Shown here in pieces: positions 2,130 to 29,756 of a stretch of DNA of 30,244 bases. The position numbers and the translations under genes were made by a program. The notes under the pieces were generated by a model, which saw only the letters and a program-made list of their open reading frames with translations, had not been told where the DNA came from and did not search any database. The stretch covers positions 38,960 through 69,203 of the forward strand of contig NW_003144293.1 in NCBI RefSeq assembly GCF_000003605.2. The letters are read 5' to 3'. Position 1 is the stretch's first letter; each line of letters opens with the position of its first letter. The DNA comes from Saccoglossus kowalevskii (taxonomy: Eukaryota > Hemichordata > Enteropneusta > Harrimaniidae).

Positions 2130-2258
2130 GCAGCAGGTTGTTATATTGACTTTATACAATCTTGGTTTGAGGAGTAGTGGAAGGATGGGATACTTTCGGT
2201 GGAAAGAGGATATTTGTTCTTTTATTGATAAAAACTGGCATACATTTTTTGGTGCTAG
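2130..2258 (+). CDS. KAT14: KAT14 exon: conserved N-terminal GYFRWKEDI block
   Basis: Acceptor is ctgttag and donor is AG|gtaagt. The exon begins with the last base of a codon and then reads QQVVILTLYNLGLRSSGRMG followed by YFRWKEDICSFIDKNW. This matches the KAT14 region just after the Cys-rich domain. It ends with two bases of an Arg codon completed by the next exon. It is the most 5' exon I can recognise. Confidence 0.93.
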
Positions 2259-5200
2259 GTAAGTATAGTTAAAAGCCCAATATTCAATCTCCTGGATCTC
2301 TTTTAAATTTGAATTGTTCCTGAATTATAGCAACAACAAATGCCACAACAACAGCAAATGTCACATGTGTTTTATGAATCTACAAAACTTGTGCACTCAT
2401 ATATTGCTTTTTTTTTCTTTTCTCAGACTTGAAGCATTCTGCTTCTGCTAATGTGTCATTGTTGAATCAGGATGCTACAAAGTACATGTACATGTACATT
2501 ATTCAGAGTTAACATACATGGTAGGATCAAAAATCAACATGGCAACTTTGTGAATCCAAAATTTCCTCACTTAAAAACTGGTTTGTTTGACATAATTTGC
2601 TTAAAATTTATGAACTGACAGAACCCACTATTGCCTTTTGCAAAAAATAAAAAGGATATAGTGAAATATAGTGCACAAAATAAAATTTTCTGCTCTTCAG
2701 TGTTGGATTTTACAGGGATGTTGAGCTGCCATGTTTTGTTTAACTGAATAGTGGAAATGTAGTAAAGTGACAGCTTTTACATTAAAAAGAAATTTATAAT
2801 TAAAAACTTGTGTTTTGACCTTTGTGCGTCAGTATCTTAGACTTGCCTGGACCAATCACAATCAAACTTTAGACATACATCACACATAATATGACGGTAT
2901 ACATATGCAGATCACAATCAAGCATTTAAGGATGGATTTTGTGGACATTATGGGACCATGATGCACGTCATTTTATTTTTCAGATTCAAAATGGCTGACT
3001 GGCGACCATTTTGTTTAAATGAATGCGCTTCTAGAGCCATATCTCTGATATGCTTTGACTGATTATGTTCAAATTTTATATATTCGTTTTACATCATGTT
3101 ATAGATGTGTAGATGTATTCAAAATGGCTGACTGGTTGCCATTTTGTTTTAATTAATGCTGTTCCAGAGCAATATTTCTCAATATGGACAAGTACTCATT
3201 TGATGATCAGATACAAGATGTCAATCATTTTAATGTTAAAAATCATCATAATCTAGCATCATCTTCTGGATCCATACTTCTGACATGTTTATGTTCCAAC
3301 TATATTACTATAAACAAAACTATATATCTTAAATTTGGTAACTAATGGGGTCTGTGCCATGCATGGCTTGTTTATTTATACAAGTAATTGACAAGGTTAA
3401 TCACAGTAATGCCTAGCATCATCTTCTGGATCCATACTTCTGACATGTTTATGTTCCAACTATATTACTATAAACAAAACTATATATCTTAAATTTGGTA
3501 ACTAATGGGGTCTGTGCCATGCATGGCTTGTTTATTTATACAAGTAATTGACAAGGTTAATCACAGTAATGCCTTTTTCTTGAAAAATTACGAAAACATG
3601 ATTTGAACACAAAATTTATGGTAAACCCTCTTGTGATGGAAGTGAATAAACTTTTTTCTTTACAAAAAACTTGGAAAGTGTCAATTGAGGGGATTCCTGT
3701 TATTTTTAGCTGCCATAACTAGAGTACAAAATGTTGTAATGATCACATTTTTTATTTTGACACAAATCTATGCAAATTATTTGGATAACTGACATAGCTC
3801 ACACCAAAGCACTTTTTAGAATTTCTAATTAAAGGGCTGTGGTCATTGCACCACATCATGTTTGATATCCACTCATAGCAACATACATGTACAGAACGTG
3901 AGTAAATACATTGTTTGTTTACAAGGAATTCAAATAGTTGCTGCGTGTCGACATTCACCCTTTACATATGGGATGAAGCAATGTTACTGCAATATGCTGT
4001 AGATATGGGACTATATATAAAGTGTCTATATCAGTATACTGTGGAATACTTTATTTTCGCTGGATTTAATTTTCGCTGAAAAGGCTTTTTAGGCATTTTG
4101 TATGGAATTTATTTTCACTGATTTTTGATGAGTTTAATGTGAAATACAGGAAAAAAAAGTATATTCGCTGGATTTTATTTTCACGGAATCATCCCTTCAG
4201 CAAAAATAGCGAAAATAAATTCCAAGCGAAAATAAAGTATTCTACAGTACATTGAAATTGGCTAATGTAACTAACCATTGGTTATTGATACAATTTCAGA
4301 GTGAGAACATCTACTTTTCATGGAACAGTAGCGGGAGTCTTATCAACTGGTAACAAAGTACATTTCAAATCTGGCGCTCATGAATTTGGAGAAGCTGGAT
4401 GGTGGGCCTTGGTAGAAAACAGACCTCCTCTCAAACCTGATACTAACGGTAAGCTGGATGGTGGGCCTTGGTGGAAAACAGACCTCCTCTCAAACCTGAT
4501 GCTAACAGTAAGTTGGATGGTGGGCCTTGGTGGAAAACAGACCTCCTCTCAAACCTGATACTAACGGTAAGTTGCATGGTGGGCCTTGGTGGAAAACAGA
4601 CCTCCTCTCAAACCTGATGCTAACAGTAAGTTGGATGGTGGGCCTTGGTGTAAAACAGACCTCCTCTCAAACCTGATACTAACGGTAAGTTGCATGGTGG
4701 GCCTTGGTGGAAAACAGACCTCCTCTCAAACCTGATGCTAACAGTAAGCTGGATGGTGGGCCTTAGTGGAAAACGGACCTCCTCTCAAACCTGATACTAA
4801 CGGTAAGCTGAATGGTGGGCCTTGGTGGAAAACAGACCTCCTCTCAAACTTGATACTAACGGTAAAGTTGGATGGTGGGCCTTAGTGGAAAACGGACCTC
4901 CTCTCAAACCTGATACTAACAGTAAGCTGGATGGTGGGCCTTAGTGGAAAACGGACCTCCTCTCAAACCTGATACTAACAATATGTTGCATGGTGGGCCT
5001 TGGATCGAAACAGACCTCCTCTCAAACCTGATATCAGTGAATACTAAATACACATACTACTTCCCATTTAAATCTGTAATAATGCAAATCAATATTATTT
5101 TATGACATAGCACCAACAGGTCACAAAATGTCTGCTTTAAAAAGACAAAGAATTCCATTTGAACCAACAATAAAAGTAGAAGGCTTGCGGACAAGAAAAA

Positions 5201-8200
5201 GAGCAACATCAGTTGAATCAGCAATTGAGTTGAAAGAAAAAAGATCAAGAACACAGGTATAAACTTTATTTAACCCCAAATAATAAAAAAAAATAGGCAA
5301 AATATTGCACCAAAAAAAAGTTAAATGATTTTTAATTACGGAGGTTTGGCAATACTTGTTTGTAACTTATAAGTACCAAATAGGATATTATAATTTTGCA
5401 CATTTTTATGTTCTTTGCAATTTCTGTTAATTTTGGACAATACATTGTCATGATTTTTAATTGACTACTGGACTTGCCATGCAGGTCTGCATTATGATAC
5501 CGGTAGGTGATATTAGTCTTATAAAAGGAACCCCATATTTATTTTTCGAGAATTACACATTCCGTCATATTGAAAAAAAAATTTAGTTGATACACTCATT
5601 TAGAGAAAAAATACCATAACTCAAATTTTTATCTTGAAACTTTGATGAGATAATAATTTTATTCCTACTATTTTAGGAAGCCAAGGACATCAGGAAAGCC
5701 AAACAAGTGGAACCAAAGAGACAGGAAGATTCCAAAGAATGTGTCGAGAATTTACAACAACGATCAGGGGTACGCTCAATAAATAATAATGAAGCTTCGA
5801 GCTGATTCAGTGTGCTTACTAGTAAATTATAGTACAGATGTGCACACACATTTCGTAACATAAATATTTGCATATTATTTTGACATGATATCCCTGGACC
5901 TGTTTTCTCTTTACAACCTGTATGTATGTGTGTGTTTGTCTTCTTAGGCATCTACTCCAACAGTTCCTGATTCTCCATCTGTGCTTAGTTTACTTGGAGC
6001 TGAGGACAGTTCAGATTCTATAGTATCCAGTATGCTATCAGAGAGTGACCTCACACCAGAAGGTAAGGAACATGCCACACGATGTCACGAGTCAACTATC
6101 TGTCTGATTCCCAGTAGCAATATTCCTTTGTTGACATACATGTATCTTGAAACAGGCATGATCACATATGCCATACTTGTCCAAACAAGCTACATAATAA
6201 TAATAATGTTTATTCAACATTTGTATCGACAGCATGAAAACAGTAATACATATCTTTGAATTACATTCATCAATTCTTTTCTATATTGTCATAAATCAGG
6301 TACATATATCGTAAGCTAATGAGGTATTTTCCACATTCTTATTTATGTTCATAGTGTATCACCAAAAAGGGAATTGAACCTATAATTCAACCCCCTGAAA
6401 GAAAACTATTCATTAATGATGAAGATTCAACATTGCTTCTCAGTGAGATTTCTAACGTTAAATAAAACTAATTTCTAATATGATTAGATGACCTACAAAG
6501 ATAGAGAAAGTGGTAAATGTCTTCTTTGCCCTGATTGCAGACTCCACAAATTCCATTACCTCTGTAATTTTTCCATCCCATTTTGTTACCTTCAAGATCT
6601 AAAGAGTTTGACCTAATTTTAAAGACAAGGGAGATTCTGTGATGATCATAATGATATATTATGTAATTTTCTTTTTTAATGTTTCTTTTAATCCAACAGT
6701 AGTGTTTTAAAGATTTCATCTTCTCTAAATTTTTTGTAAACATGTTTATTTCATTTTCTTATATATATACTGATTTTGTTAAAACGTCTTATATGTACTT
6801 CTAGATTGAGGACCAGACCACAGTCAGCCAGCATGTTTTTTGTCATCGCATGTCATCACAGATGTTCACCCTTTCAACTTTTGGTTATAGGAAAGATATC
6901 CACTGATTTGCTATATCAAAACTATTTATGATAATTAGTGTTAAAAATTAGCATCAATAATCTAATAGAGTATAAGTAGACAAAAGTTTAGAATTTGTAT
7001 TATGAATATTACAATAAACATGTTGTGAATATTATATTTTCTTTTCTCTTAGCAACATTACCAGCCATTCTGATGACAGGAGATGTTGAACCAGATGATG
7101 ATGACCTTGATCTTGATCTAGGAACAGGCTTAGTGACATCGTCAATTGCTGGGGTAACCACCACTATGTCCTCCACTCTGCAAGATCTGCAAAAAAGAGT
7201 TGACGATGCGAAGGCTGCTGCTACCATGAAGTCAGCCGAGAGAGAAGATATCGTTAAAAATGAGGAAGATGAAGATGATGAAAGTTCTGGTGAGGAAACA
7301 ATTTCTGAAAAAATAGTAGAGAAGAAAAAAGAGCCAAGTAGACCAAGAAGAGTAAAACATTCTGAATTGCCAAGTAAAGAAGAAGTCCCAAGGTAGGAAA
7401 GTTTATTGCACTACTGCACTGTTGTATGAATCTCTTGTGTGTGTCTATAATCACTTGTAATGTTATGCATGTCAATCCAGATTATAATTGGTCAAAGCTT
7501 CACCTTGTAATGTAAAAGTAAAAAAAATCTATAAGTTTACTTTATACATTTCTGGAAGAATAAGAAAAAATATAGAATTTTGATTGGTAAATGCAAATTA
7601 TTTCTGAAAAGTATTTTGCTCTGAATGCAATAATGGGAATAATAGTAATAATAATAATAATAACTTGATTGCATCCCTAGAAATACTTCTAATGTTTCTC
7701 TGTTAATAGCAATAACGATTAGTTGTAATAATGAGTATGTTTAAAAGAGACTTGGTAGTGAACAATAGGTTCTGTTATAATTTACTGAAAAATAAAAATG
7801 AAAATGAAAACCAAGTTATGAAATGAATGCATATACAGTACAAGATTCTATAGCAATGACACAATTTATTATCTCAACATTCTGTATATTGACATTGGGT
7901 TTAAAGCAGACAGGGTACTTACATATGTGAGAAATGACAGCATTGACACAACCACAGTCACTCAGTCACAGCCCCACTTGTGTCTGTCATATATATTGGG
8001 AAATGTGTGTAGCCTGCTGGACAGACTGAATAGAACAGACCAGAACAGTTTTATTTTTTGTTTAGTTTAATTTAATTTAGTTTTATTTTGATAGAATAGA
8101 ATAGAAATGGGAAGGGAAGGGAAGGGAAACGGGACGGGAACGGAAACGGAAACGAAAACGGAAACAAGGCTGTCTTTTTACAAATAATGTAATACTTTCC

Positions 8201-11200
8201 TCTCCCCTTTCAATTAGGATTTTACCAATGAGTCTGTACGAGGAAAAGCAGTTGTTGAAGAAATTAGAATCTTGTTCAGATGCGGTTGCAAAAAATCCTC
8301 AAGTGAGAACACTTAGAAGAAAACTACTCATTAGACAGGTATGGAAAGCACATATTTTAAATCTTACAGCGGGTGCAAGATATTTATGTACACCTAACTC
8401 TGTCACCTGGTAGGCAATTACCGAGGGATTTCTCAACATCCCCTGACACATTCCTAGACACTCCAGTGACCATTGTATTAGGGGCGTTTTTGAATAATTG
8501 TATCAACGAGGTTTATTATTTTCAGGAAACGTTCAATGTAGAATTTATTAAATGAACCAGCATATGTACGCATGAAATAATAAATATCAAAAATAAGAAA
8601 AACATGATTGTTTGATAATTGTTTGACTTGACGCTTACATGTTGTAATAGTTGAACCCGTCAGAAACCTTGGGCCGTTGTTTTGACTAACTGCCCTCCTT
8701 TAACTACTTTCTGAATTGTGTGAATCAACAGATTCAGTAATGAAGCTGTCTCAAGTGACATGCCACTTATTTCCTACTTTATAGCCATAATTTGGTGAGC
8801 GATAACTGCCCGAAATGTCATTAAAATTAAGGATTTGATGAGAATAATTGTCATCTCCAATGTATATTTGATATTGTTTGTTTAGGAGAAACGTGCAAGG
8901 GGTTTACCAATATTTGATTTGGATGATTTTATGATGAAGAGTATGCAGAAAGTCTGTAATGTGTCCACAGCTAATAGATCGTACAATATCACGTCTTTGT
9001 TGTCGTCATACAATATCACGTCTTTGAATCCATACAATATCTCAATGAGACATGCCGGGGACTTCAGGGTCCTAGACAGATTTCAGGTATGTGGCCAGGG
9101 TATTCATTTTGTTTGAGACCTCATGGGTCTTAGACAGATTTTAGGTATGTGGCCAGAGTATTCATTTTGTTACTACTGGTGCTACTACTGGTAAAAAGTG
9201 AAATGTTTTGACTTGATTAGAAACACTTACCTTTTGTCTCTTCATATATCAACTGATTTAGTTTTCACCCCAATGTCTTCTCAAGCATGACACTTTTATG
9301 AAAATTTTTGAACTTTGTAGAAATCTTCAAATCAAAGCTTCATACCCAAAATTTGAGAAATATTAAAATTGATAATTCCACAAAAAACAGGGATTTAGAA
9401 ATGCACCTCTGTGTGTAAATCTCAAATATATTTAGACCAGTTATGTTCAAATTTTTCACTCACATCATAGAATATGTCACCTTTATGTGTTCATTTCACA
9501 GTCCAATTCAGGATACCGAATGATTAAAAATGCATGAAAATCAAGCAATTCTTTCATTCTGGAACCAGATCATGGTCTAACCAGATGGATGGATTTCATT
9601 CAAATGTAATACATATCAGTGGATTGTTGTCAAGAATTGCTTAAAATGCACCATGGTGCATATTTGTGATAATATCTTGCACATAGCTGGTCAATGTATT
9701 TAGTTATGCATTTACTGAATTTAATTTGAGCTCAGTATCACGTACATCATATTGGTAAATACTGTCGAATACTTTATTTTCGCTTGGAACTAATTTTAGC
9801 TATTTTTGTTGAAGGGAATGATTCAGTGAAAATAAAATCTTGCGAATATACCTTTTTTCCTATAGTTTACATTCAACTCGTCAGAAATCGGTGAAAATAA
9901 ATACCCTACAAAATACCCAAAAAGTTTTTTCAGCGAAAATTAATTCCAGCTAAAATAAAGTATTTTACAGTATGAACATTTGTAAAAAAAACCCAGCTCA
10001 TATGCTTCTTTAAAATATTTTTTGCAGGTTTCACAGCACACAGTGAAAGCGCATCAAGTACATTATTCATCTTTCAGGGCCAGGCTCATAGGAAGCGAAG
10101 TGGAGTCTAATTTGCAAAGTATATGTAGTCCATATACAGCCAGGTAACATGTAATATGAAGTTGTTTTAAGATCATATATGTCTGACAGCAGGTATTTGC
10201 TTGAGGTGTCATAGTATTTTGAAAATAATATACGTTTATACCATACATTTGTTTCTATATCATGGATTTAGTCAATAGTGGTTTTCAGCACAGATATCCA
10301 TGTACAATAATATGTACACACATTTGATCAGTACTTCTAGAAAGCTTATCTTGTGATTATTTCACAATTCACGTGATTTCAAATTATGTTTTTATAGAAT
10401 TCATGTATGTCATAACAGATTAAACCATTATCTTATAAATCATTGAATATATGTGGATAGATACAATGATTTTTTTGTATATTGAAACGATGTAATGCTC
10501 ACACACCCCTCACTCCCATACATGTATAACTATAATGTGTGACTCTTCATTATTCAGAGTATTAAAACCGTTTATAAGAAGAGATTTTGAGTCCAGACCA
10601 TTGAAAATGGTGTTAATGCAGGAAATCTGGAACTACAGAACCAGGATTGAACCTGGATATGATCTACCGTCACCGGCACCCATCGACTATTGTTACGTTA
10701 GACCACATCATGTACCATCAGTTAATGTAATGTGCAGGGAATTCTTCTGGCCCGGTATTGACTGTAAGTGAACTGTGATTTTATTCTGCTATGAGATTCT
10801 CTGCCTGATATTCTAGGGAAACAGAATATTTATTAACTTTATCTTCGCAACCTTATTGCATGTCTGTTTTACTTTAGTATCACAAACCATGGAGGAAAAC
10901 GCGAATTAGACGCAATTTTCTTTCATACAAAAATTTCATTGCGTTAAAATTCCCCGTCCCACAATATGTTTACTTGATAACTTGTTGTTTGTTGCTAGAT
11001 TAACGAGCAAACATTATAATCACTGAGTAAACGGCGGAAGTGATCATGGAACCTTTGATCTTAAACCAGTTGTGACTGTTTATACCTCCATGCACAAACA
11101 ATGTTAAGGTAGTTTGCTACCATTAAAAACACATACTCAGAAATCCTTGAAATCCAGCAAGAGGGGTTGAGTTACTATATTGTTTAAAATTCTGAAATAA

Positions 11201-13158
11201 AAATAAAGTTTTCCACAAAATGACCTCGAAAATTTATCAAAAATGTGTGTTTTAAAATAGTGTATAGTTCGCTCCTATGGCAGAAACACTCCATCATATC
11301 TCAAAATTTTGTTCAGTGATCTATGCTATAAAAATGATATGTAGCGTACGAGGGCTATGCTGTGTTTTGTATAAATGCTTTAAGTAGAATAATGTTTTTA
11401 TGATCGAAATAATTGAAAGTATGGTACCTTATGGGTGCACTATTTTTTTAAGATGATGAGATTGTTCATATACCGGGAGGTGATTATTCATCGTTGTTCG
11501 CCCGTCACCTGTCAACAATTACATTTTCGATTTTTTCTTGAAAACCACTAGCTTAATTGCTTTGATTCTTGGTATGATACCTTGCATGAACCTCTGTCAG
11601 ATTTGTTCATTTCATGACGATATCTTCAATTCTCTATTTTTGGCGAATATGATTGTCATTATTGGTAAAAAATGCTATTTTTGATGTCTTCTTGAAAACT
11701 ACCAGTTCAATTGCTTTGATACTTTGTATGTACCGGTACTGGTAGTTACCTTGAGTGGACCTCTGCCTGATTTGTTCATTTCATGCCGATATAATTTTTG
11801 TAATTTTTAGTAAAAAAAATAATTTTCGATGTCTTTTTGAAAGTTACCAGCTCAGTTGCTTTTGATACTTACCTGTAGTATGTATTTACCTTTATTGGAC
11901 CTCTGCCAGATTTGTTCTTTTCGTTGTGATATCTTTAATTCTCTATTTTTGTAATTTTTTGTGAAAAATTATATTTTTAAATCTTTCTTGAACGCTAACA
12001 ACTCAATTGATTTAATATCTGTGGTGTATATTATTTTTATGAAAAATTTGTTTGATAAAGTTAAAATGACATGTGTTCAACAGCCAGAACCAAACTACTT
12101 TTTTCTGGGTTTTGTTTTGCATTGCTCGACTTGGCTACCACAATGTTATTTTAGGACAGCAGAGCCTTTTTTGATCGTCAGGTTGCTTGTACTAAGCACT
12201 ACTAGATATTTTAACTAGCGTGGATGGGTAAACTCGGTTTCGACAGTGAGCTGTTATCATCATTAAAAGCCTGAAATGTCTGTTGTATAACAATAATACT
12301 AAAGCAGCATTTAATTTCATTTCATTTAGTATCGGAAACCCTCCAGTATCCAGATTTCAGTGTGGTGGCCCTGTACCGTAAGGTTGTGATAGGCTTTGGA
12401 TTCATGGTGCCAGACGTTAAGTATAATGAGGCGTATATATCATTTTTGTTAGTGCACCCAGAGTGGAGGAATGCTGGCATTGGTACATTTATGGTGTATC
12501 ATCTAATACAGGTTAGTAAACTCACATTCTATTGTATTGCTATGCAACTTTTAAAAAGCAGCACTGTTAGAAAAATTGAAATAAAGCATTTTTTATTTTT
12601 TTTCAATGTATTTTATAAACATTTTTGGAATCGTTTCCCCATGATTACCCTTCTTTTAACTACCAGTATATTTTCTCACCCTGTGTTATTGAACAAAATT
12701 TTGAGACATGACAAAACCATTTCATCACCATGGCAACCAATGGTAAACAGCTCACAAATCACAATTTTAATGGATGTTGAATACATTTTTTTGTGTGCAA
12801 ACCAGACATGTCTTTTTGTTTTGTCAACAGCAGCATAAAATATGGCGCATGTGATATATCTAGTAATATGTTTTAATGGTAGCCTTCTAAAGTTGTAATG
12901 AATATCACTCAAGTTTCATGTGAGGTTTTCACAAAAAGAGTTAAAATTGATAATTTTTACAGTATGTCTAATGATTTCTTGCAGACGTGTATGGGTAAAG
13001 ACTTGACCTTGCATGTATCAGCTACCAACCCCGCCATGCTGCTCTATCAGAAATTTGGATTCAAACCAGAAGAATTTATTTTGGACTTTTATGATAAATA
13101 TTATGAAGAGGACAGCAAAGAGTGTAAACATTCTTTCTTTTTGAGATTACGAAGATGA
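2130..13158 (+). CDS. KAT14: KAT14 (CSRP2BP/ATAC2) histone acetyltransferase, 12 exons, 5' incomplete
   Basis: KAT14 is the GNAT-type acetyltransferase subunit of the nuclear ATAC complex, which acetylates histones. The exons seen are 2130-2258, 4300-4448, 5120-5256, 5677-5769, 5948-6062, 7053-7392, 8218-8338, 8886-9086, 10028-10143, 10558-10763, 12330-12511 and 12985-13158. They total 1963 bases and encode 653 residues; all junctions are GT-AG and phase-compatible. Conserved blocks in order are GYFRWKEDICSFIDKNW, EFGEAGWW, VEGLRTRKRA/ELKEKRSRTQEAKDIR, SLYEEKQLLKKLESC, SPYTARVLKPFIRRDFE, DYCYVRPHHVPSVN, EFFWPGIDL, and the GNAT core VPDVKYNEAYISFLLVHPEW with acetyl-CoA loop RNAGIG. The C-terminus is HAFFLRLRR-like (HSFFLRLRR). 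The match to vertebrate KAT14 is from memory but spans the whole length. The N-terminal Cys-rich part (about 110 residues in human) is missing, and I found no suitable exon in 1-2129, so it should lie upstream of the window. A low-complexity acidic stretch sits mid-protein, and introns are rich in repeats. Confidence 0.96.
2830..3200. repeat. Diverged ATGGC-type interspersed repeat
   Basis: Two units carry TTCAAAATGGCTGACTGG followed by CCATTTTGTTT, near 2987 and 3119. They are related to the larger array at 13.8-14.7 kb. The core forms a short hairpin (AATGGC...GCCATT type). The repeat lies in a KAT14 intron and has no coding capacity. Confidence 0.5.
3253..3574. repeat. Perfect 160-bp tandem duplication
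   Basis: Bases 3253-3412 are repeated at 3413-3572 with no difference that I can see, starting CTAGCATCATCTTCTGGATC and ending ACAGTAATGC; identity runs two bases further. It lies in a KAT14 intron. Perfect identity means either a very recent duplication or an assembly artefact. Confidence 0.9.
4039..4247 (-). mobile_element. TA-flanked palindromic MITE, copy 2 (209 bp)
   Basis: The ends are CTGTGGAATACTTTATTTTC and TAAAGTATTCTACAG with TA on both sides (4037-4038, 4248-4249). Its reverse complement aligns with the copies at 1839 and 9762 through the whole interior, for example GAAGGGATGATTC. It is therefore the same family in inverted orientation, and it ends 52 bases before a KAT14 exon. 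Confidence 0.85.
4300..4448 (+). CDS. KAT14: KAT14 exon: TVAGVLSTG / SGAHEFGEAGWW block
   Basis: Acceptor is caatttcag and donor is AACG|gtaagc. It encodes RTSTFHGTVAGVLSTG, then FKSGAHEFGEAGWWALVEN and RPPLKPDTN, as in KAT14. The last about 55 bases of this exon plus the donor are the founder unit of the 59-bp minisatellite that fills the start of the next intron. Only the first donor (after 4448) gives the conserved protein; reading through meets a stop at 4556-4558. Confidence 0.93.
4394..5035 (+). repeat. 59-bp minisatellite spanning a KAT14 5' splice site, about 11 units
   Basis: The unit reads GCTGGATGGTGGGCCTTGG, then GGAAAACAGACCTCCTCTC, then AAACCTGATACTAACGGTAA. Units start at 4394 (exonic), 4453, 4512, 4571, 4630, 4689, 4748, 4807, 4867, 4926 and 4985. 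All spacings are 59 except one of 60. The exon-intron boundary falls inside the unit, so the 5' splice site recurs after 4507, 4566, 4625, 4684, 4743, 4802, 4861 (gtaaag) and 4921, and is lost in the last unit (atatgt). Confidence 0.95.
5120..5256 (+). CDS. KAT14: KAT14 exon: VEGLRTRKRA / ELKEKRSRTQ block
   Basis: Acceptor is accaacag and donor is ACACAG|gtataa. It reads GHKMSALKRQRIPFEPTI, KVEGLRTRKRATSVESAIEL and KEKRSRTQ. It is closely similar to the human KAT14 stretch around VEGLRKRASRNPVESAMELK. It enters in phase 1 and leaves in phase 0. Confidence 0.93.
5677..5769 (+). CDS. KAT14: KAT14 exon: EAKDIRKAK block
   Basis: Acceptor is attttag and the donor is gtacgc after CAGGG. It encodes EAKDIRKAKQVEPKRQEDSK and then ECVENLQQRSG, 31 codons in phase 0/0. 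The start continues the conserved RTQEAKDIR motif across the intron; the rest is lineage-variable. Confidence 0.88.
5948..6062 (+). CDS. KAT14: KAT14 exon: Ser-rich linker
   Basis: Acceptor is ttcttag and donor is GAAG|gtaagg. It encodes ASTPTVPDSPSVLSLLGAED and then SSDSIVSSMLSESDLTPE. The end corresponds to the SLLSEADLIPD stretch of human KAT14. This is a low-complexity linker whose phase fits its neighbours. Confidence 0.85.
6194..6760 (-). mobile_element. LINE 3' fragment (RT C-terminal, zinc-knuckle-like) with TAA tail
   Basis: On the minus strand, 6743-6468 encodes IRSNSLDLEGNKMGWKNYRG and GICGVCNQGKEDIYHFLYLC. The C-x2-C-x7-H-x4-C spacing is typical of the segment after the reverse transcriptase in many non-LTR elements. 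The 3' end is a (TTA)n tail at 6194-6207 on the element strand. The catalytic RT is not present. It is inserted antisense in a KAT14 intron. Confidence 0.7.
7053..7392 (+). CDS. KAT14: KAT14 exon: acidic and basic low-complexity linker
   Basis: Acceptor is ttctcttag and donor is CCAAG|gtagga. It encodes ATLPAILMTGDVEPDDDDLD, then Ser/Thr-rich sequence, a KNEEDEDDESSGEE acidic run, and Lys/Arg-rich sequence ending KEEVPR. The composition matches the disordered middle of KAT14 but the sequence is poorly conserved. The assignment rests on position, phase and open frame. Confidence 0.85.
7640..7780 (-). mobile_element. LINE 3' end remnant with ATT tail
   Basis: Plus-strand (TAA)n near 7645-7664 is followed by TTGATTGCATCCCTAGAAAT. 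This resembles the end of the LINE at 24.92 kb (TTATTGCATCCTTAGAAATA), so the two are probably one family. Only the 3'UTR and tail remain, antisense to KAT14. Confidence 0.5.
8090..8166. repeat. Purine-rich GAATA/GGGAA/GGAAAC tract
   Basis: The plus strand is almost all purine: AATAGAATAGAAATGGGAAGG, repeats of GGGAA, then repeats of ACGGAA. It ends about 50 bases before the acceptor of the KAT14 exon at 8218. Such tracts can form intramolecular triplex DNA, but no function is shown. Confidence 0.7.
8218..8338 (+). CDS. KAT14: KAT14 exon: SLYEEKQLLKKLESC block
   Basis: Acceptor is ttcaattag and donor is AGACAG|gtatgg. It encodes ILPMSLYEEKQLLKKLESCS and then DAVAKNPQVRTLRRKLLIRQ, matching the SIYEEKLLLKRLEAC region of human KAT14. 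A purine-rich (GGGAA)n-like tract ends about 50 bases upstream. Confidence 0.93.
8886..9086 (+). CDS. KAT14: KAT14 exon: EKRARGLPIFDLDD block with internal YNIT repeats
   Basis: Acceptor is ttgtttag and donor is TTTCAG|gtatgt, 67 codons. It encodes EKRARGLPIFDLDDFMMKSM and ends with HAGDFRVLDRFQ (human QDFRILDRYQ). The middle carries three near-copies of YNIT/S at 24-27 base spacing (8982, 9009, 9033), which I do not recall from vertebrate KAT14. The exon end and donor are duplicated just downstream. Confidence 0.92.
9060..9171 (+). repeat. Tandem duplication of exon end plus 5' splice site
   Basis: Bases 9060-9113 (GACTTCAGGGTCCTAGACAG, the donor CAG|GTATGT and 27 intron bases) recur at 9117-9171 with a few substitutions and one inserted base. 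The second donor reads TTTTAG|GTATGT. Read-through from the first donor meets TGA at 9114-9116, so use of the second donor would truncate KAT14. Confidence 0.9.
9762..9970 (+). mobile_element. TA-flanked palindromic MITE, copy 3 (209 bp)
   Basis: The ends are CTGTCGAATACTTTATTTTC and TAAAGTATTTTACAG with TA on both sides (9760-9761, 9971-9972). The interior matches the 1839 copy and the reverse complement of the 4039 copy. It ends 57 bases before a KAT14 exon. Confidence 0.85.
10028..10143 (+). CDS. KAT14: KAT14 exon: FRARLIGSE / SPYTAR block
   Basis: Acceptor is ttttgcag and donor is CCAG|gtaaca. It encodes VSQHTVKAHQVHYSSFRARL, IGSEVESNLQSICSPYTA and part of R. It matches the KFLYRLVGSED...SPYTSR region of human KAT14. 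Confidence 0.92.
10558..10763 (+). CDS. KAT14: KAT14 exon: VLKPFIRRDFE to EFFWPGID, start of acetyltransferase domain
   Basis: Acceptor is ttattcag and donor is GACT|gtaagt. It encodes VLKPFIRRDFESRPLKMVLM, then DYCYVRPHHVPSVNVMCREF and FWPGID. These are among the most conserved stretches of KAT14, leading into the GNAT fold. Confidence 0.95.
11515..12030. repeat. Diverged tandem array of about 150-bp units (4 copies)
   Basis: The anchor TTTTCGAT...CTTGAAAACC...CTTTGATAC recurs at about 11538, 11692, 11837 and 11988 (spacing 154, 145, 151). The units also share GACCTCTGCCAGATTTGTTC. The array lies in the largest KAT14 intron (10764-12329), the rest of which shows nothing I recognise. Confidence 0.75.
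12330..12511 (+). CDS. KAT14: KAT14 exon: GNAT core with acetyl-CoA loop RNAGIG
   Basis: Acceptor is tcatttag and donor is ATACAG|gttagt. It encodes SETLQYPDFSVVALYRKVVI, GFGFMVPDVKYNEAYISFLL and VHPEWRNAGIGTFMVYHLIQ. RNAGIG is the R-x-x-G-x-G/A acetyl-CoA pyrophosphate loop of GNAT enzymes, so the catalytic core looks intact. Confidence 0.96.
12985..13158 (+). CDS. KAT14: KAT14 last coding exon
   Basis: Acceptor is ttcttgcag and the stop is TGA at 13156-13158. It encodes TCMGKDLTLHVSATNPAMLL, YQKFGFKPEEFILDFYDKYY and ends HSFFLRLRR. This is the C-terminal GNAT motif B region and is nearly identical to human KAT14. The 3'UTR follows directly. Confidence 0.96.
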   Translation, partial: TCMGKDLTLHVSATNPAMLLYQKFGFKPEEFILDFYDKYYEEDSKECKHSFFLRLRR

Positions 13159-13807: not shown

Positions 13808-14720
13808 GTACTTTATGTGGGACATATGCACTTGCAGTGGTTTAGTGATTCGATTCAAAATGGCCGACTGGCAGCCATCTTGTTTTTTGACATGCTTTGT
13901 CAGTTTTCATTCAAACTTGGTACATAGATTATACATGTTAGGATACATGACCATGACGATTTATTTCACAATTGAATCAAAGATGGCCAACTGGCAGTCA
14001 TCTTGTTTTTTGAAAATGTTGTATTTTGGACATGTTTGTCAGTTTTCATTCAAATTTAGTACATAGATCATACATGTTAGGATACATGTCCCTGACCGTC
14101 CGTGAGTTCCTGAGTCTGTCTGTCCGTCTGTGCGTGCGTGCGTCAGTCTGTCCAGAGTCATATTTCAGAATCCTGTGGACCGATTCTGTTCAATCTTTGG
14201 ATGTGTCTAGTACCTTATGTGGGACATATGCACATGCAGTGGTTTAGCGATTCGATTCAAAATGGCCGACTGGCAGCCATCTTGTTTTTTGAAAATGTTG
14301 TATTTTGGACATGCTTTGTCAGTTGTCATTCAAACTTCGTACATAGATTATACATGTTAGGATACATGTCTATTACGATTTATTTCGCAATTGGATCAAA
14401 GATGGTCGACTGGCAGGCATCTTGTTTTGTTTTTTATATATGCGGTATCTTGAACATTCTCTGTCGGTTTTCATTCAAATTTGGCACGTACATGTACTTT
14501 ATACATATTAGGATGCATGTCCATGACAATTTGTTTCAAAATCTGGTCAAGGATGGCCGATTGACAGCCATCTGACTTTTTGGCCTTACTACTATATTTC
14601 CACAATTTATGTACCATTTGTATTTGGCACATACATCATACATATCAGTGTGTTTCATAATCAGTTCAAAGATGGCCAAATAATGGCTGTTTTTATTTTT
14701 GACCATATTACTACTACAGG
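13808..14720. repeat. ATGGC hairpin repeat array (about 402-bp higher unit)
   Basis: TATGTGGGACATATGCAC followed by GATTCGATTCAAAATGGCCG recurs 402 bases apart (13817 and 14219). Inside, the core ATGGCCGACTGGCAGCCAT appears in variant form near 13860, 13983, 14262, 14402, 14553 and 14673, each followed by CATTCAAA-type and ACATGTTAGGATACATG motifs. A GTCTGTCCGTCTGTGCGTGC stretch lies at 14115. ORFs through this block are repeat by-products. Confidence 0.75.
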
Positions 14721-19794: not shown

Positions 19795-22700
19795 CTAATC
19801 ACTGTCACATGCATCTGATAACAAGTTTGACATTTCCAGCTGTTTGAGTCTTTTTCTCTCCGCCTGCACTAACAAATCAAACGCTGTGACATCTGGGTTG
19901 TGTTCCCCTACTTGGCTGTCCTTTTCAGACTCACAATCACTGTTTGTCCTTGTACTTAAATCTCCTAACAGTTCTGCAATTATATCCTTAGAATGCAGTT
20001 GAATACCATCAGAATTCTGTTGGGACTCTGTGGTAGACAACACATTCATTGACAAATCTTGCTGTGACATTAAGACATCAGATGACATATCAGAGCCAGA
20101 TCCAGCTATACTGGGCTCAGTAATGTTGAAATCTCCTGGTTTATCAGGTAGCTGTTTTCCAGAGTTAAATCCGGATATGCTGGGCACAGCAGTGTTGGTA
20201 TCACCTGGTACATCTGTTATGCTGGGCACAGTAGTGTTGGTATTTCCTGGTTCACCTGGCAGCTGTTCTCCAGAGTTAGATCCTGCTATGCTGAACACAG
20301 CAATGTCGGAATCTCCTGGTTCATCAGCTTTGCTGGACTCAGCAGAGTTGGAATCACCTGGTTCATCTGTTATGCTGGACACAGCAGTGTTTGAATCACC
20401 TGGTTCATCTGTTATGCTGGACTCAGCAGTGTTGGAATTTCCTGGTTCATCTGGTAGCTGTTCTCCAGAGTTAGATCCTGCTATACTAGACACAGCAATG
20501 TCAGAATCTCCTGGTTTGTCAGCTTTGCTGGACTCAGCAGAGTTGGAATCACCTGGTTCATCTGTTATGCTGGACACAGCAGTGTTTGAATCACCTGGTT
20601 CATCTGTTATGCTGGACTCAGCAGTGTTGGTATCTCCTGGTTCATCTGCTATGTTGGACACATTGGCATCACCTGGTTCATCTATTATTCTGGACTCAGC
20701 AGTGTTGGAATCTCCGGGTTCATGTGGTAGCTGTTCTCCATTAGTATCAACTGCACTCCCTACAGATTCATCCTCATGTTGCTCTTCATTGGTCACTTCC
20801 AGTACATCAATTTCAATTTCTTTATTCTTATCTTCCGATGAACTGTTAGGACCAGAAGAACCCACCCTTTCAATTTCTCGTTTGTTCTCACTGTTTGCAG
20901 CTGGCTCTGTTGTATTGCTCTCTGTATCCGAGAGTTTTACTAGACATGTTTCAGCATTCCTATGTCTCTCCTTGTCACGTCTGTGTTTCTTGCTTTTGTG
21001 TTTGTGTTTTCGTTTGTGTTTACCATGTTTTTTTCTTTTCTTACTCTTGTCCTTATAGTGATTCTCTTTTCTTTCATATGTGACTTCAATATCTGAGTCA
21101 CTTGTATATCGAGTGGTATGTCGTTTCTTGTGGTATAAGCTTTTTTGTTTTAATGTGTAAATGTCTTTCAGGGGTTCCTGTCTGCTAAATGAACCCATAA
21201 ACTCAACACTAGAGCTGCGGTGACGATGCTTACGCCTGAAAGACCTGGGAGATCTTGACCGAGAGCGTGAACGCGAACAACCTCTAGTTCTCTGAAAACG
21301 TGAACTTGAATATGATGACATGACGGAGGAATGTGAATGTCGACTGTAAGCAGAGCTATTACTAGAGCGATCTAAATCATGAGCATGATACGATGCTCTA
21401 CCTCTTGATCTGTACTGTCTTTGACTAGTCCAGAGTGGAGACCTTGACCTAGACCTGGACCGACTGTACCTATTATGTGTAGGCCTAAATGATTTACTAG
21501 AAAAGTAATAATTTCTTGATGGCTCATGATCAGAATCAGAATCAGATGAAAAATAAGTGTACGCACCACGAGATCCATGATATCGTACATATTCATAATG
21601 AGGTGCTTCCACATGTTTTGTTTTTCGTTTTCTTTTACCCCCTGGTTTATTTCTGTTGTCAAGGTACCTATTGCGATGTGATTCATCACTGTGGCTACTA
21701 CTTCTATTTCGATTTCTGTCTTGACTGGAACTACAGCTCCTGTATCTATCATAACTCCTATCTCTTTTGCTACGTGTTCTACCTTTCCTACTTTTACTTG
21801 TAGATTTCTCTGAATTTTTTAACTTTTGCTTTGATTTAACTGTCTTTGCGATTTCTCTACTGTTTTTCCCTTCTTTGTCGGAATCAGAGGACAACGTTAT
21901 GATTGCATCTGGAGAGCGTTCGCTAATGGATTTGACAAAACCAACAAACATAACTTCATCAGAGCTATCATTGTCACTTGGAGGCTCCGGATTGTGAGTT
22001 TCTGAAAGTTCGTTTTTCACGGCCATACTTGAAGTAGAAGGTTGGTCGTCTGTGGTAATGGTAGACACGGATGTATGACCTGAATAATCCAAAGCTAGTG
22101 GCATCACACCATCCGAGCTATCACTTGAAACATCAGATAAATCAATGAGTGGCACTGATCTCGAATTAGTTTGGTGTCTGGCAGAGACAGGGCTTTCCGG
22201 TGACTGGTGATTGGAAAGGAAATCATACTGTGTGTGTTGATCATAACCATTCATATCATAGGGCGATCTTGCAAAGTTTACTAGTTCTCGAATGAACTGC
22301 TCAGTTCTGTGATACATAAATGGTCTGAGGTTGTCAAAAAATTCAGGGCCCTCCATGTCCATGACAGGGATGTATGACAAGATTAGGTTTATCATAAACA
22401 TAACAAGGTCTTCATTATTCTGAAACAAGACATTGAGTTCTCTCCTCAACCATGGCACCAATCGATGCAAACAGGCTGCATTCTGCTGAAAAAATGTGCT
22501 AGATATATCCCTGTAACAAGTACGTCTCATAGACGATTCAGTCTGTGCTCGTAAACCAAGAGCATAGACCTGTCTTCGTCTTTCAATAGCAGCTGCCTCA
22601 CGCTGTTCTCTATAAGCACGAGTGTTTGCTCGAGTGGAAGGCAATTGTCGTCTTTGTTGAGCCAGTGCTCTGTCTCGTACAGAAGCAAGAGTTGTACTAT

Positions 22701-23133
22701 ATCTGAAACGCTGCCTGGTAATTTCATCACTGAGTGTATTACTTCTAGATGATGAAAGAAAGTATTGATCATACATCTCATTGGATTTAATGTTATGAAT
22801 AATCGATTTGAAGGATGTTTTGCACAATGGACATGTCGCTTTAACTTTAGACCATTCCATGATGCATACAAAGCAGAACGTGTGAAAACAACCATCGGTA
22901 AACGATTTATTCTCAAACTTTCCAAGACAGATGGAACAGTTATTTTCAGGTGACTTAGATCCATCACTATGAGTTGGTGAGCTAGCCTTGGTGGAAGTCT
23001 TTTTTTTCTCCCTTTTACTGCATGTACTATGCTGTGATTTTGGAGTACTATCAGGCGACATGTCCATTGGTTCCTCCTCTTGAAATTGTGCAGGTTTCTT
23101 TCTGATAGAACGCAACTTCCTTTTAGATGCCAT
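19795..23133 (-). CDS. TOPORS: TOPORS RING E3 ubiquitin/SUMO ligase, 1112 residues
   Basis: TOPORS is a nuclear topoisomerase I- and p53-binding ligase that attaches both ubiquitin and SUMO. The RING is C3HC4 at residues 66-104 (C66, C69, C82, H84, C87, C90, C101, C104). Residues 140-150 are QRFRYSTTLA. The TOPORS-specific block at 207-300 includes YRDISSTFFQQNAACLHRLV, PWLRRELNVLF, NLRPFMYHRTEQFI and NFARSPYDMNGYDQH. SIM-like hydrophobic-acidic motifs occur at 394-400 (VMFVGFV) and 411-419 (IITLSSDSD). RS-rich stretches are at 457-640, a Lys-rich basic tract (likely NLS) at 694-724, and an acidic repeat array at 798-1014. Human TOPORS is about 1045 residues, so the length fits. The start has ACCATGG context 37 bases after a 3' splice site. 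The coding region is one exon, as for most of human TOPORS. It converges with KAT14 and diverges from SMIM27. Confidence 0.97.
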   Translation of the reverse strand: MASKRKLRSIRKKPAQFQEEEPMDMSPDSTPKSQHSTCSKREKKKTSTKASSPTHSDGSKSPENNCSICLGKFENKSFTDGCFHTFCFVCIMEWSKVKATCPLCKTSFKSIIHNIKSNEMYDQYFLSSSRSNTLSDEITRQRFRYSTTLASVRDRALAQQRRQLPSTRANTRAYREQREAAAIERRRQVYALGLRAQTESSMRRTCYRDISSTFFQQNAACLHRLVPWLRRELNVLFQNNEDLVMFMINLILSYIPVMDMEGPEFFDNLRPFMYHRTEQFIRELVNFARSPYDMNGYDQHTQYDFLSNHQSPESPVSARHQTNSRSVPLIDLSDVSSDSSDGVMPLALDYSGHTSVSTITTDDQPSTSSMAVKNELSETHNPEPPSDNDSSDEVMFVGFVKSISERSPDAIITLSSDSDKEGKNSREIAKTVKSKQKLKNSEKSTSKSRKGRTRSKRDRSYDRYRSCSSSQDRNRNRSSSHSDESHRNRYLDNRNKPGGKRKRKTKHVEAPHYEYVRYHGSRGAYTYFSSDSDSDHEPSRNYYFSSKSFRPTHNRYSRSRSRSRSPLWTSQRQYRSRGRASYHAHDLDRSSNSSAYSRHSHSSVMSSYSSSRFQRTRGCSRSRSRSRSPRSFRRKHRHRSSSVEFMGSFSRQEPLKDIYTLKQKSLYHKKRHTTRYTSDSDIEVTYERKENHYKDKSKKRKKHGKHKRKHKHKSKKHRRDKERHRNAETCLVKLSDTESNTTEPAANSENKREIERVGSSGPNSSSEDKNKEIEIDVLEVTNEEQHEDESVGSAVDTNGEQLPHEPGDSNTAESRIIDEPGDANVSNIADEPGDTNTAESSITDEPGDSNTAVSSITDEPGDSNSAESSKADKPGDSDIAVSSIAGSNSGEQLPDEPGNSNTAESSITDEPGDSNTAVSSITDEPGDSNSAESSKADEPGDSDIAVFSIAGSNSGEQLPGEPGNTNTTVPSITDVPGDTNTAVPSISGFNSGKQLPDKPGDFNITEPSIAGSGSDMSSDVLMSQQDLSMNVLSTTESQQNSDGIQLHSKDIIAELLGDLSTRTNSDCESEKDSQVGEHNPDVTAFDLLVQAERKRLKQLEMSNLLSDACDSD
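20092..20742 (-). repeat. In-frame 14-residue repeat array in TOPORS C-terminal region
   Basis: Residues 798-1014 consist of DEPGDSNTAESSIT-type units of 14 residues. Every fourth unit or so is followed by GSNSGEQLP, giving a 65-residue higher-order unit. Residues 830-894 and 895-959 (20646-20452 and 20451-20257, 195 bp each) are almost identical. The array is acidic, Ser-rich and predicted disordered. I do not recall it in vertebrate TOPORS. Confidence 0.93.
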
Positions 23134-23170
23134 GGTGTATAGTCTTTAAGTAGTAGTTCTTTTAATGGAC
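23134..23170 (-). other. TOPORS: TOPORS 5'UTR part of the main exon, with 3' splice site
   Basis: On the minus strand ACTTTAATTTCAG precedes GTCCATTAAAAGAAC at 23170, a plausible acceptor. It is 37 bases before the ATG and implies a spliced 5' leader. Confidence 0.65.
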
Positions 23171-28730: not shown

Positions 28731-29756
28731 CAGTTAAAAACAGAATTATTCATACCCCTACTGAAATGTCAATGTTTCACGTTTTTCTGGAAAACGACAG
28801 GTGGACACAGAATATTTTGGCCGTAATTGGATACCTTTACTTGAAAGGTAAAAATTCTGAATGGGTTTTGTACAACCTCATTTGCATAACAAAAAGAATA
28901 TTACTTTATTTGTATTTTGAATCACTCAAAATTATTCATACCCTTTGTCAATAAAACTGTAAAGGCATTGTTTAATACTGTTTCATTTTACACAAATCTG
29001 AACTGCATAGTCCTAACTGGTATCAGTGTATATAATAAGGTGCAGAAATTAAGCCCTGGAAAAAATTGTACTTCAAAAACATCATTAAGTGCTTCAGAGT
29101 GAAGATTGAAAATAAGTGGCCAGAATGGCCCAGAACCATCTTACTAATTTCCCCCATAGACTACTGTGTAATAAATGCGCTGACAGCATCTTTATTCAGT
29201 GGTGATCTTCAGTCATAGATTTTTAGATAGTGACTGCACCAATTTCAAAACTTTTCTATATTCCTGGCTGTTTATCCTGAACATCATTATACAACATAGA
29301 ACATCAAAGTTCAAAACAGAAATTCCTCCATGATGTTAACTCTTAAAGAGCCACAGAAATTACAGCTCTATAGACATGTGTATTGTGTGGTGCATAAGTG
29401 CAACTTTGGCATGTTCAGAGTTAAACAATGTCTTTAAAAGGCAATATCACAGTCAATAGTCAATTGCAAAGCCTTAAAGTTTGTTCTTGATCACAGCATC
29501 CAGGCAGTTTCTAAAGCTGTTCATGAGAGTTTGGCAGAGCTCCACATGAATTTTGGCCCGCTCTTCCTTGGCTATGATCTCTAGTTCTGTCATGTTGGAG
29601 GGCCTGTGGGTATGCACCCTTTTCTTGAGGGTTTTCCAGAGGTTTTCAATGGGATTCAGGTCTGCGCTCTAGCTTGGCCATTGTAGCACCTCCATACTGT
29701 TATCAAGATGAAGATTTTCTGCAGACTCCCTGTGCTGCTCCTTCTTCATGATGCCT
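28731..29756 (-). mobile_element. Tc1-like DNA transposon, truncated by a LINE
   Basis: The element starts after TA (28729-28730) with CAGTTAAAAACAGAATTATT. The word AATTATTCATACCC occurs at 28743 and again at about 28930. Two direct copies about 190 bp apart inside one end are the IR/DR arrangement of Sleeping Beauty-like Tc1 elements. The transposase C-terminus lies on the minus strand inside. Similarity stops at about 29756 where the TAA tail of a LINE begins; the other end is not in the window. Confidence 0.8.
29474..29753 (-). pseudogene. Tc1-like transposase C-terminal fragment with premature stop
   Basis: The minus strand reads ESAENLHLDNSMEVLQWPS, stop, SADLNPIENLWKTLKKRV, HTHRPSNMTELEIIAKEERA, KIHVELCQTLMNSF, RNCLDAVIKNKL, then TAA at 29476-29474. 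DLNPIENLW is the hallmark around the last catalytic acidic residue of the DDE transposases of Tc1 elements. The usual family reading is WPSQSPDLNPIE, so CAG became TAG. The N-terminal DNA-binding part is absent. Confidence 0.85.

Follow-up and report, generated by a model that had tools for sequence, protein, structure and literature searches.

A minisatellite that repeats a 5' splice site in a KAT14-like gene of Saccoglossus kowalevskii

Why would a gene carry nine consecutive donor sites behind a single coding exon, only one of which can give the protein, and which of them is likely to be spliced? This question is raised by a tandem repeat in the hemichordate Saccoglossus kowalevskii, located in the window analyzed here, the whole stretch of 30,244 nucleotides from contig NW_003144293.1. 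We examined the identity of the host gene, the structure of the array, the strength of its donors and the consequences of their use, and weighed several explanations for their presence.

A minisatellite across an exon-intron junction

The host gene lies on the + strand. A tblastn search with what we take to be the human KAT14 sequence gave 11 collinear pieces that reach position 13155 and cover query residues 125-782. E-values were at most 0.005 in eight of these pieces (best 2e-28) and 0.015, 0.30 and 1.5 in the other three, and the last two pieces showed 84% and 81% identity. No significant piece was obtained for query residues 1-124. One of the five exons scanned against Pfam scored above the cut-off, matching Acetyltransf_1 (GNAT domain) at 12329-12511 with an E-value of 1.9e-8, while a PDB search with one GNAT exon returned nothing significant (best E 0.48 among the 3 matches listed). 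At the level of sequence similarity, the label "KAT14-like" for the host gene is well supported.

The exon that carries the array occupies 4300-4448 (+ strand; VRTSTFHGTVAGVLSTGNKVHFKSGAHEFGEAGWWALVENRPPLKPDTN; tblastn identity 59%, E 1.4e-13) and matched no Pfam family. It joins in frame to both neighbors. The upstream exon at 2130-2258 (QQVVILTLYNLGLRSSGRMGYFRWKEDICSF..., + strand) was placed by tblastn (65% identity, E 6e-14), its borders and its frame, and ends at the donor tag GTAAGT; the downstream exon at 5120-5256 (HKMSALKRQRIPFEPTIKVEGLRTRKRATSVESAIELKEKRSRTQ, + strand, 137 nt) was placed by tblastn (55% identity, 46.6 bits) and frame. The frame stays open across the splice from 4448 to 5120, and the intron between them measures 671 bp.

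Tandem Repeats Finder (TRF) reported a 59-bp minisatellite at 4392-5033 on the + strand, with 10.9 copies, 92% matches and a score of 1056, and in a direct-repeat search successive copies began 59 bp apart, except in one case of 60. Copy 1 coincides with the final 55 bp of exon 4300-4448, and the exon-intron junction lies inside each unit. An array of 59-bp units spanning the exon-intron junction of a KAT14 exon, as described in the initial annotation of this stretch, was thus confirmed by TRF, by direct repeats and by reading frame. About ten copies at 92% identity are far beyond what chance would produce. A 32-base exact piece of the unit had no match in a collection of prokaryote contigs, where few were to be expected.

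Comparison of the copies in a fixed register revealed traces of turnover. No difference separates copies 4 and 6, and copies 3 and 5 match at all but one of 59 positions, which points to a recent two-unit step (118 bp); two variants are common to copies 7, 9 and 10. The last copy differs from the ten others at 11-15 of 59 positions, partly through its 3-base-shorter end. Between the exon copy and copies 2-10, 4-7 of 59 positions differ, a count that includes up to 2 differences in the exon bases just before the unit and a copy 9 that is one base out of register. The near-identity of inner copies and the divergence of the last one fit ordinary minisatellite turnover with a worn edge. The sequence before the first unit in the exon reads GGAGAAGCTGG and the junction reads CGGTAAGCTGG; the short AAG(C) common to exon and donor perhaps steered the initial duplication, which would then have rebuilt a good GTAAG.

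Several other elements were observed in the window. A palindromic element (4028-4258, with TACTGTGGAATACTTTATTTTCGC at one end), which we tentatively class as MITE-like, ends some 40 bp short of the array exon's acceptor; its arms, 4028-4061 and 4225-4258, are 34 nt long and 88% complementary. The intron upstream of the array exon contains a 160-bp tandem duplication with 100% identity (3253-3572), either a recent event or an assembly duplication. Modules with ATGGCYGACTGG...CCATNTTG, mostly 120-150 bp apart, occur within the gene at 2984-3179 and behind it at 13841-14582. On the - strand, positions 19795-23145 hold a 1116-aa stop-to-stop frame that encodes a RING finger (Pfam zf-C3HC4, E 4e-8) as well as an SR-rich region, resembles TOPORS and includes repeats of mostly 42 bp at 20103-20723. 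A fragment at 29474-29668 (- strand) resembles a DDE_3 (Tc1/mariner-like) transposase with an E-value of 1e-4, below the Pfam cut-off.

Strength and consequences of the repeated donors

GTAAG follows positions 4448, 4507, 4566, 4625, 4684, 4743, 4802 and 4921, that is, the authentic donor and seven extra ones, the latter all within 473 bp past it. Eight of the 13 GTAAG motifs in the gene span (2130-13158, used for motif counts and for the ranking of GT dinucleotides) fall in 4394-5035, and each extra donor comes with about 54 bp of near-identical exon-end context. The authentic donor, acg GTAAGC at 4449-4454, has a U1 duplex energy of -8.2 kcal/mol. Among the extra donors, all likewise on the + strand, acg GTAAGT at 4567-4572 and 4685-4690 reaches -9.3 and acg GTAAGC at 4803-4808 equals the authentic site at -8.2; aca GTAAGT at 4508-4513 and 4626-4631 gives -5.6, and aca GTAAGC at 4744-4749 and 4922-4927 gives -4.5. 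An eighth, weakened donor follows 4861 and reads acg GTAAAG (4862-4867, -5.5) because of a 1-bp insertion. With it, all the donor positions listed in the initial annotation were recovered. The junction of copy 10 has lost its GT (aca ATATGT, 4981-4986), and the last junction is degenerate (tca GTGAAT, 5037-5042, -1.9). Because the last copy of a tandem duplication abuts the old intron, this GTGAAT is possibly what remains of the ancestral donor. The damaged junctions, after 4861, 4980 and 5036, all lie in the 3' part of the array, with an intact donor at 4921 between them.

Relative to the authentic donor, two of the eight extra donors therefore pair more strongly with U1 (4566 and 4684), one equally (4802) and five more weakly. 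A donor matrix gave the same order: 4684 and 4566 ranked 3 and 4 among the 616 GT dinucleotides in the gene span and the authentic donor ranked 7, on a matrix that was built on general donor frequencies and whose scores leave out the real donors 6061, 10142 and 10762. The four gtaagt copies had been proposed to be stronger than the authentic gtaagc. This holds for 4566 and 4684, but 4507 and 4625 are weaker because their base at -1 is A. Across the array donors, the base at -1 (G or A) outweighs the C/T difference at +6.

The authentic donor is the sole one in the series that keeps the frame open. Use of any of the eight extra donors (4507-4921) ends in a stop codon, and so does splicing at the degenerate junctions 4980 and 5036. 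With donor 4507 the frame shifts and the stop falls at +18 in the exon that follows, and the seven donors from 4566 to 4921 all sit behind an in-frame TGA at 4556-4558, which is also reached upon full intron retention. The extensions created by donors 4625 (177 nt) and 4802 (354 nt) are multiples of 3, yet they too run past this TGA. The full protein is therefore impossible from any extra donor joined to 5120, and the proposals of a read-through stop at 4556 and of frameshift or truncation from every alternative donor both stand. If the next exon starts at 5677, as assumed for this distance, the stop created by every extra donor is followed, over 50 nt further 3', by an exon junction. In vertebrates, stops this far ahead of a downstream junction predict nonsense-mediated decay, and from the positions of the stops the aberrant transcripts are predicted to be subject to it.

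The reading frame thus points to donor 4448 as the site that is used. Its exclusive use is not obvious, because two extra donors pair better with U1, a third equals it and the exon-end context has been copied along with them. We considered masking of donors 2-9 by RNA folding. The predicted probability that the 9-nt site is unpaired was 0.0124 for the authentic donor, within the range of 0.0040-0.0419 for the eight extra donors. This overlap rules out masking as far as predicted structure goes, since it does not set the first donor apart.

A divergence of 4-7 of 59 positions from the exon copy, together with seven intact extra cores, suggests that the array has persisted for a long time, and such intact cores could be read as retention. 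In copies 2-10, 3 of 12 distinct variants fall in the five GTAAG core columns versus 1.0 expected (binomial probability of 3 or fewer, 0.985), indicating that the cores are not protected. This test has low power, with 12 variants and with the three in the core coming from two copies, one of them by insertion. At that power, the placement of variants does not support selection keeping the extra donors.

A second donor duplication and the explanations weighed

Beyond the features described in the initial annotation, we found a second unproductive donor duplication in the same gene. A 58-bp tandem duplication at 9060-9171 (+ strand, 1.9 copies, 94% identity over 47 nt) spans another donor of the KAT14-like gene, so that cag GTATGT (after 9086) recurs as tag GTATGT (after 9144). 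The copied donor pairs more weakly with U1 than the original (-7.8 versus -9.4), and its use would add a 58-nt extension with an in-frame stop inside. In the exon before donor 9086, we also observed a 27-bp tandem duplication (8979-9041); the protein contains SYNITSL two times.

The window is rich in local tandem duplications, with 16 TRF rows (overlaps included) and 17 direct-repeat families. We compared splice sites with background positions, defining a near copy as 24 or more of 30 matches in 30-nt windows, which tolerate that donor 5768 is approximate and that junctions 10555, 10761 and 12981 are placed within 2-3 bases. Two of the 11 donors and none of the 12 acceptors had a near copy within 300 bp, against 2.3% of 992 positions when three arrays were left out and 10.9% of 1103 positions when they were kept in. 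A general excess of duplications at splice sites was rejected on these counts. The chance probability that two tandem units would both contain a donor was 0.002-0.028 (2 to 6 arrays counted, 10 donors), a post hoc estimate. Two donor-spanning duplications in one gene hint at a mutational bias, although they are too few to claim one, and the suggestion that donor position may matter goes no further than a hint.

The array is probably a nearly neutral expansion, tolerated within the intron, with the first donor (4448) normally used and perhaps some unproductive splicing. As to how the array expanded, whether splicing uses 4448 and whether the expansion is neutral, we infer the following course. 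A tandem duplication over the 3' end of the KAT14-like exon and its donor would have placed a second donor in the intron, and unequal exchange or slippage, partly in two-unit steps of 118 bp, would have produced the minisatellite. Donor 4448, which alone preserves the protein, would normally be spliced; the extra donors would be tolerated because the first is kept, and some of the 3' ones would have decayed. Some transcripts might use extra donors, yielding truncated products or nonsense-mediated decay without a selected function. Neutral, tolerated expansion was the third option offered by the initial annotation, and it fits best; the interpretation given there is, overall, partly supported.

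A splicing rheostat, in which extra donors compete with 4448, copy number sets the fraction of transcripts degraded and array length tunes KAT14 dosage, appears unlikely. Every extra donor leads to a stop (TGA 4556 for seven of eight, +18 of the next exon for 4507) that by the 50-nt rule would make the transcript eligible for decay, and donors 4684 and 4566 are stronger than the authentic one by U1 pairing and by matrix score alike. However, five of the eight are clearly weaker than the authentic donor and the GTAAG cores show no excess conservation. The decoy or tuning device suggested in the initial annotation likewise found no positive evidence in core conservation or in predicted accessibility, which does not favor the first donor. 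A heritable form, in which a variable decoy array diverts transcripts to decay with each 59-bp unit and 9060-9171 represents an early stage of such an array, is to our minds quite unlikely. The array might instead serve as a landing site for U1, on the principle that multiple U1 sites act in exon definition and telescripting: clustered sites would define the exon or suppress premature intronic polyadenylation, with cutting at 4448. The seven intact extra cores within 473 bp are in favor of this, but the intron is only 671 bp long and the cores lack extra conservation, so that we regard it as highly improbable.

An artefact of the assembly, or an allele that is rare but present in the animal sequenced, would be compatible with an array known from one sequence, and we hold it to be improbable. 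The copies carry mixed diagnostic variants (A/G at -1, C/T at +6, a 1-bp junction insertion and a degenerate last copy), which makes stuttering errors hardly the source, although the copy number could still be wrong. Incipient creation of introns or exons, in which a tandem duplication leads to intron gain and array copies also act as acceptors, has very little to commend it. Some copies do have a short pyrimidine stretch before an AG (ctcaaacctgatgctaacag, 12/20 pyrimidines), and because pyrimidines are few at the real acceptors 4299 and 5119 too (11/20 and 10/20), the AGs in the array are not clearly worse than these two. On the other hand, the 14 AGs in 4449-5118 with at least 10/20 pyrimidines range from 10 to 14, compared with at least 14 for six of the eight acceptors in a comparison that leaves out 8218, 8886, 10556 and 12982. 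No more than a few bases separate the TACTAAC-like motif from the AG of ctcaaacctgatgctaacag, and a branch point needs more distance than this. In addition, the AGGT required by Rogers-type intron gain is absent from the unit consensus, the junctions reading ACGGTAAG or ACAGTAAG.

Comparison with known repeated splice sites

The locus amounts to a natural experiment with a duplicated splice site: nine donors in nearly the same exon-side context, spaced in steps of 59-60 bp, of which one gives protein. The A/G variants at -1 and C/T variants at +6 form a built-in series of strengths, in which junction counts would weigh position against U1 pairing. Should individuals differ in array length, this would moreover offer a natural series of doses of a chromatin gene.

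Intron gain by tandem duplication, proposed in the Rogers 1989 model and illustrated by the potato RdRp case, with multi-copy arrays reported as well (PMC4974935), resembles our array in that a tandem duplication occurs at a splice signal inside a gene. As outlined in that source, which also cites 24-bp AGGT arrays in fission yeast, what intron gain duplicates is either a stretch of exon that contains AGGT or a structure of intron and exon, and the outcome is a new intron. In the KAT14-like array, by contrast, an exon-donor junction has been copied into an existing intron. Intron 1 of an earthworm metallothionein gene contains tandem minisatellite monomers whose function is given as unknown (PMC12783039), and is similar as a minisatellite in an intron of an invertebrate gene. 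Where that report treats the monomers, it does not present them as copied exon-intron junctions, which the KAT14-like units are.

Among the titles listed in literature searches whose terms did not include KAT14, only citations of human IFI6 (6-16, G1P3) concerned a minisatellite of splice donors. This minisatellite is cited as providing multiple splice donor sites (Turri, Cuin and Porter 1995, cited in PMC2572611 and PMC4526556), and two downstream repeat units are stated to act as donor sites, giving three mRNA species (PMC4526556). The IFI6 units are thus described in these citing articles as used donors, whereas those of the KAT14-like array are predicted ones. Both share a tandem unit that holds a 5' splice site, and the KAT14-like array also starts at the end of an authentic exon (4300-4448, in frame). 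The IFI6 unit is reportedly 12 bp long and in frame, so that its isoforms stay coding. In the KAT14-like gene, all eight extra donors instead lead to stops, a difference that is perhaps not defining, and the unit measures 59 bp, which is not divisible by 3, and combines about 54 bp of exon end with the donor. Going by these citations, the human IFI6 minisatellite is the closest precedent of the KAT14-like array.
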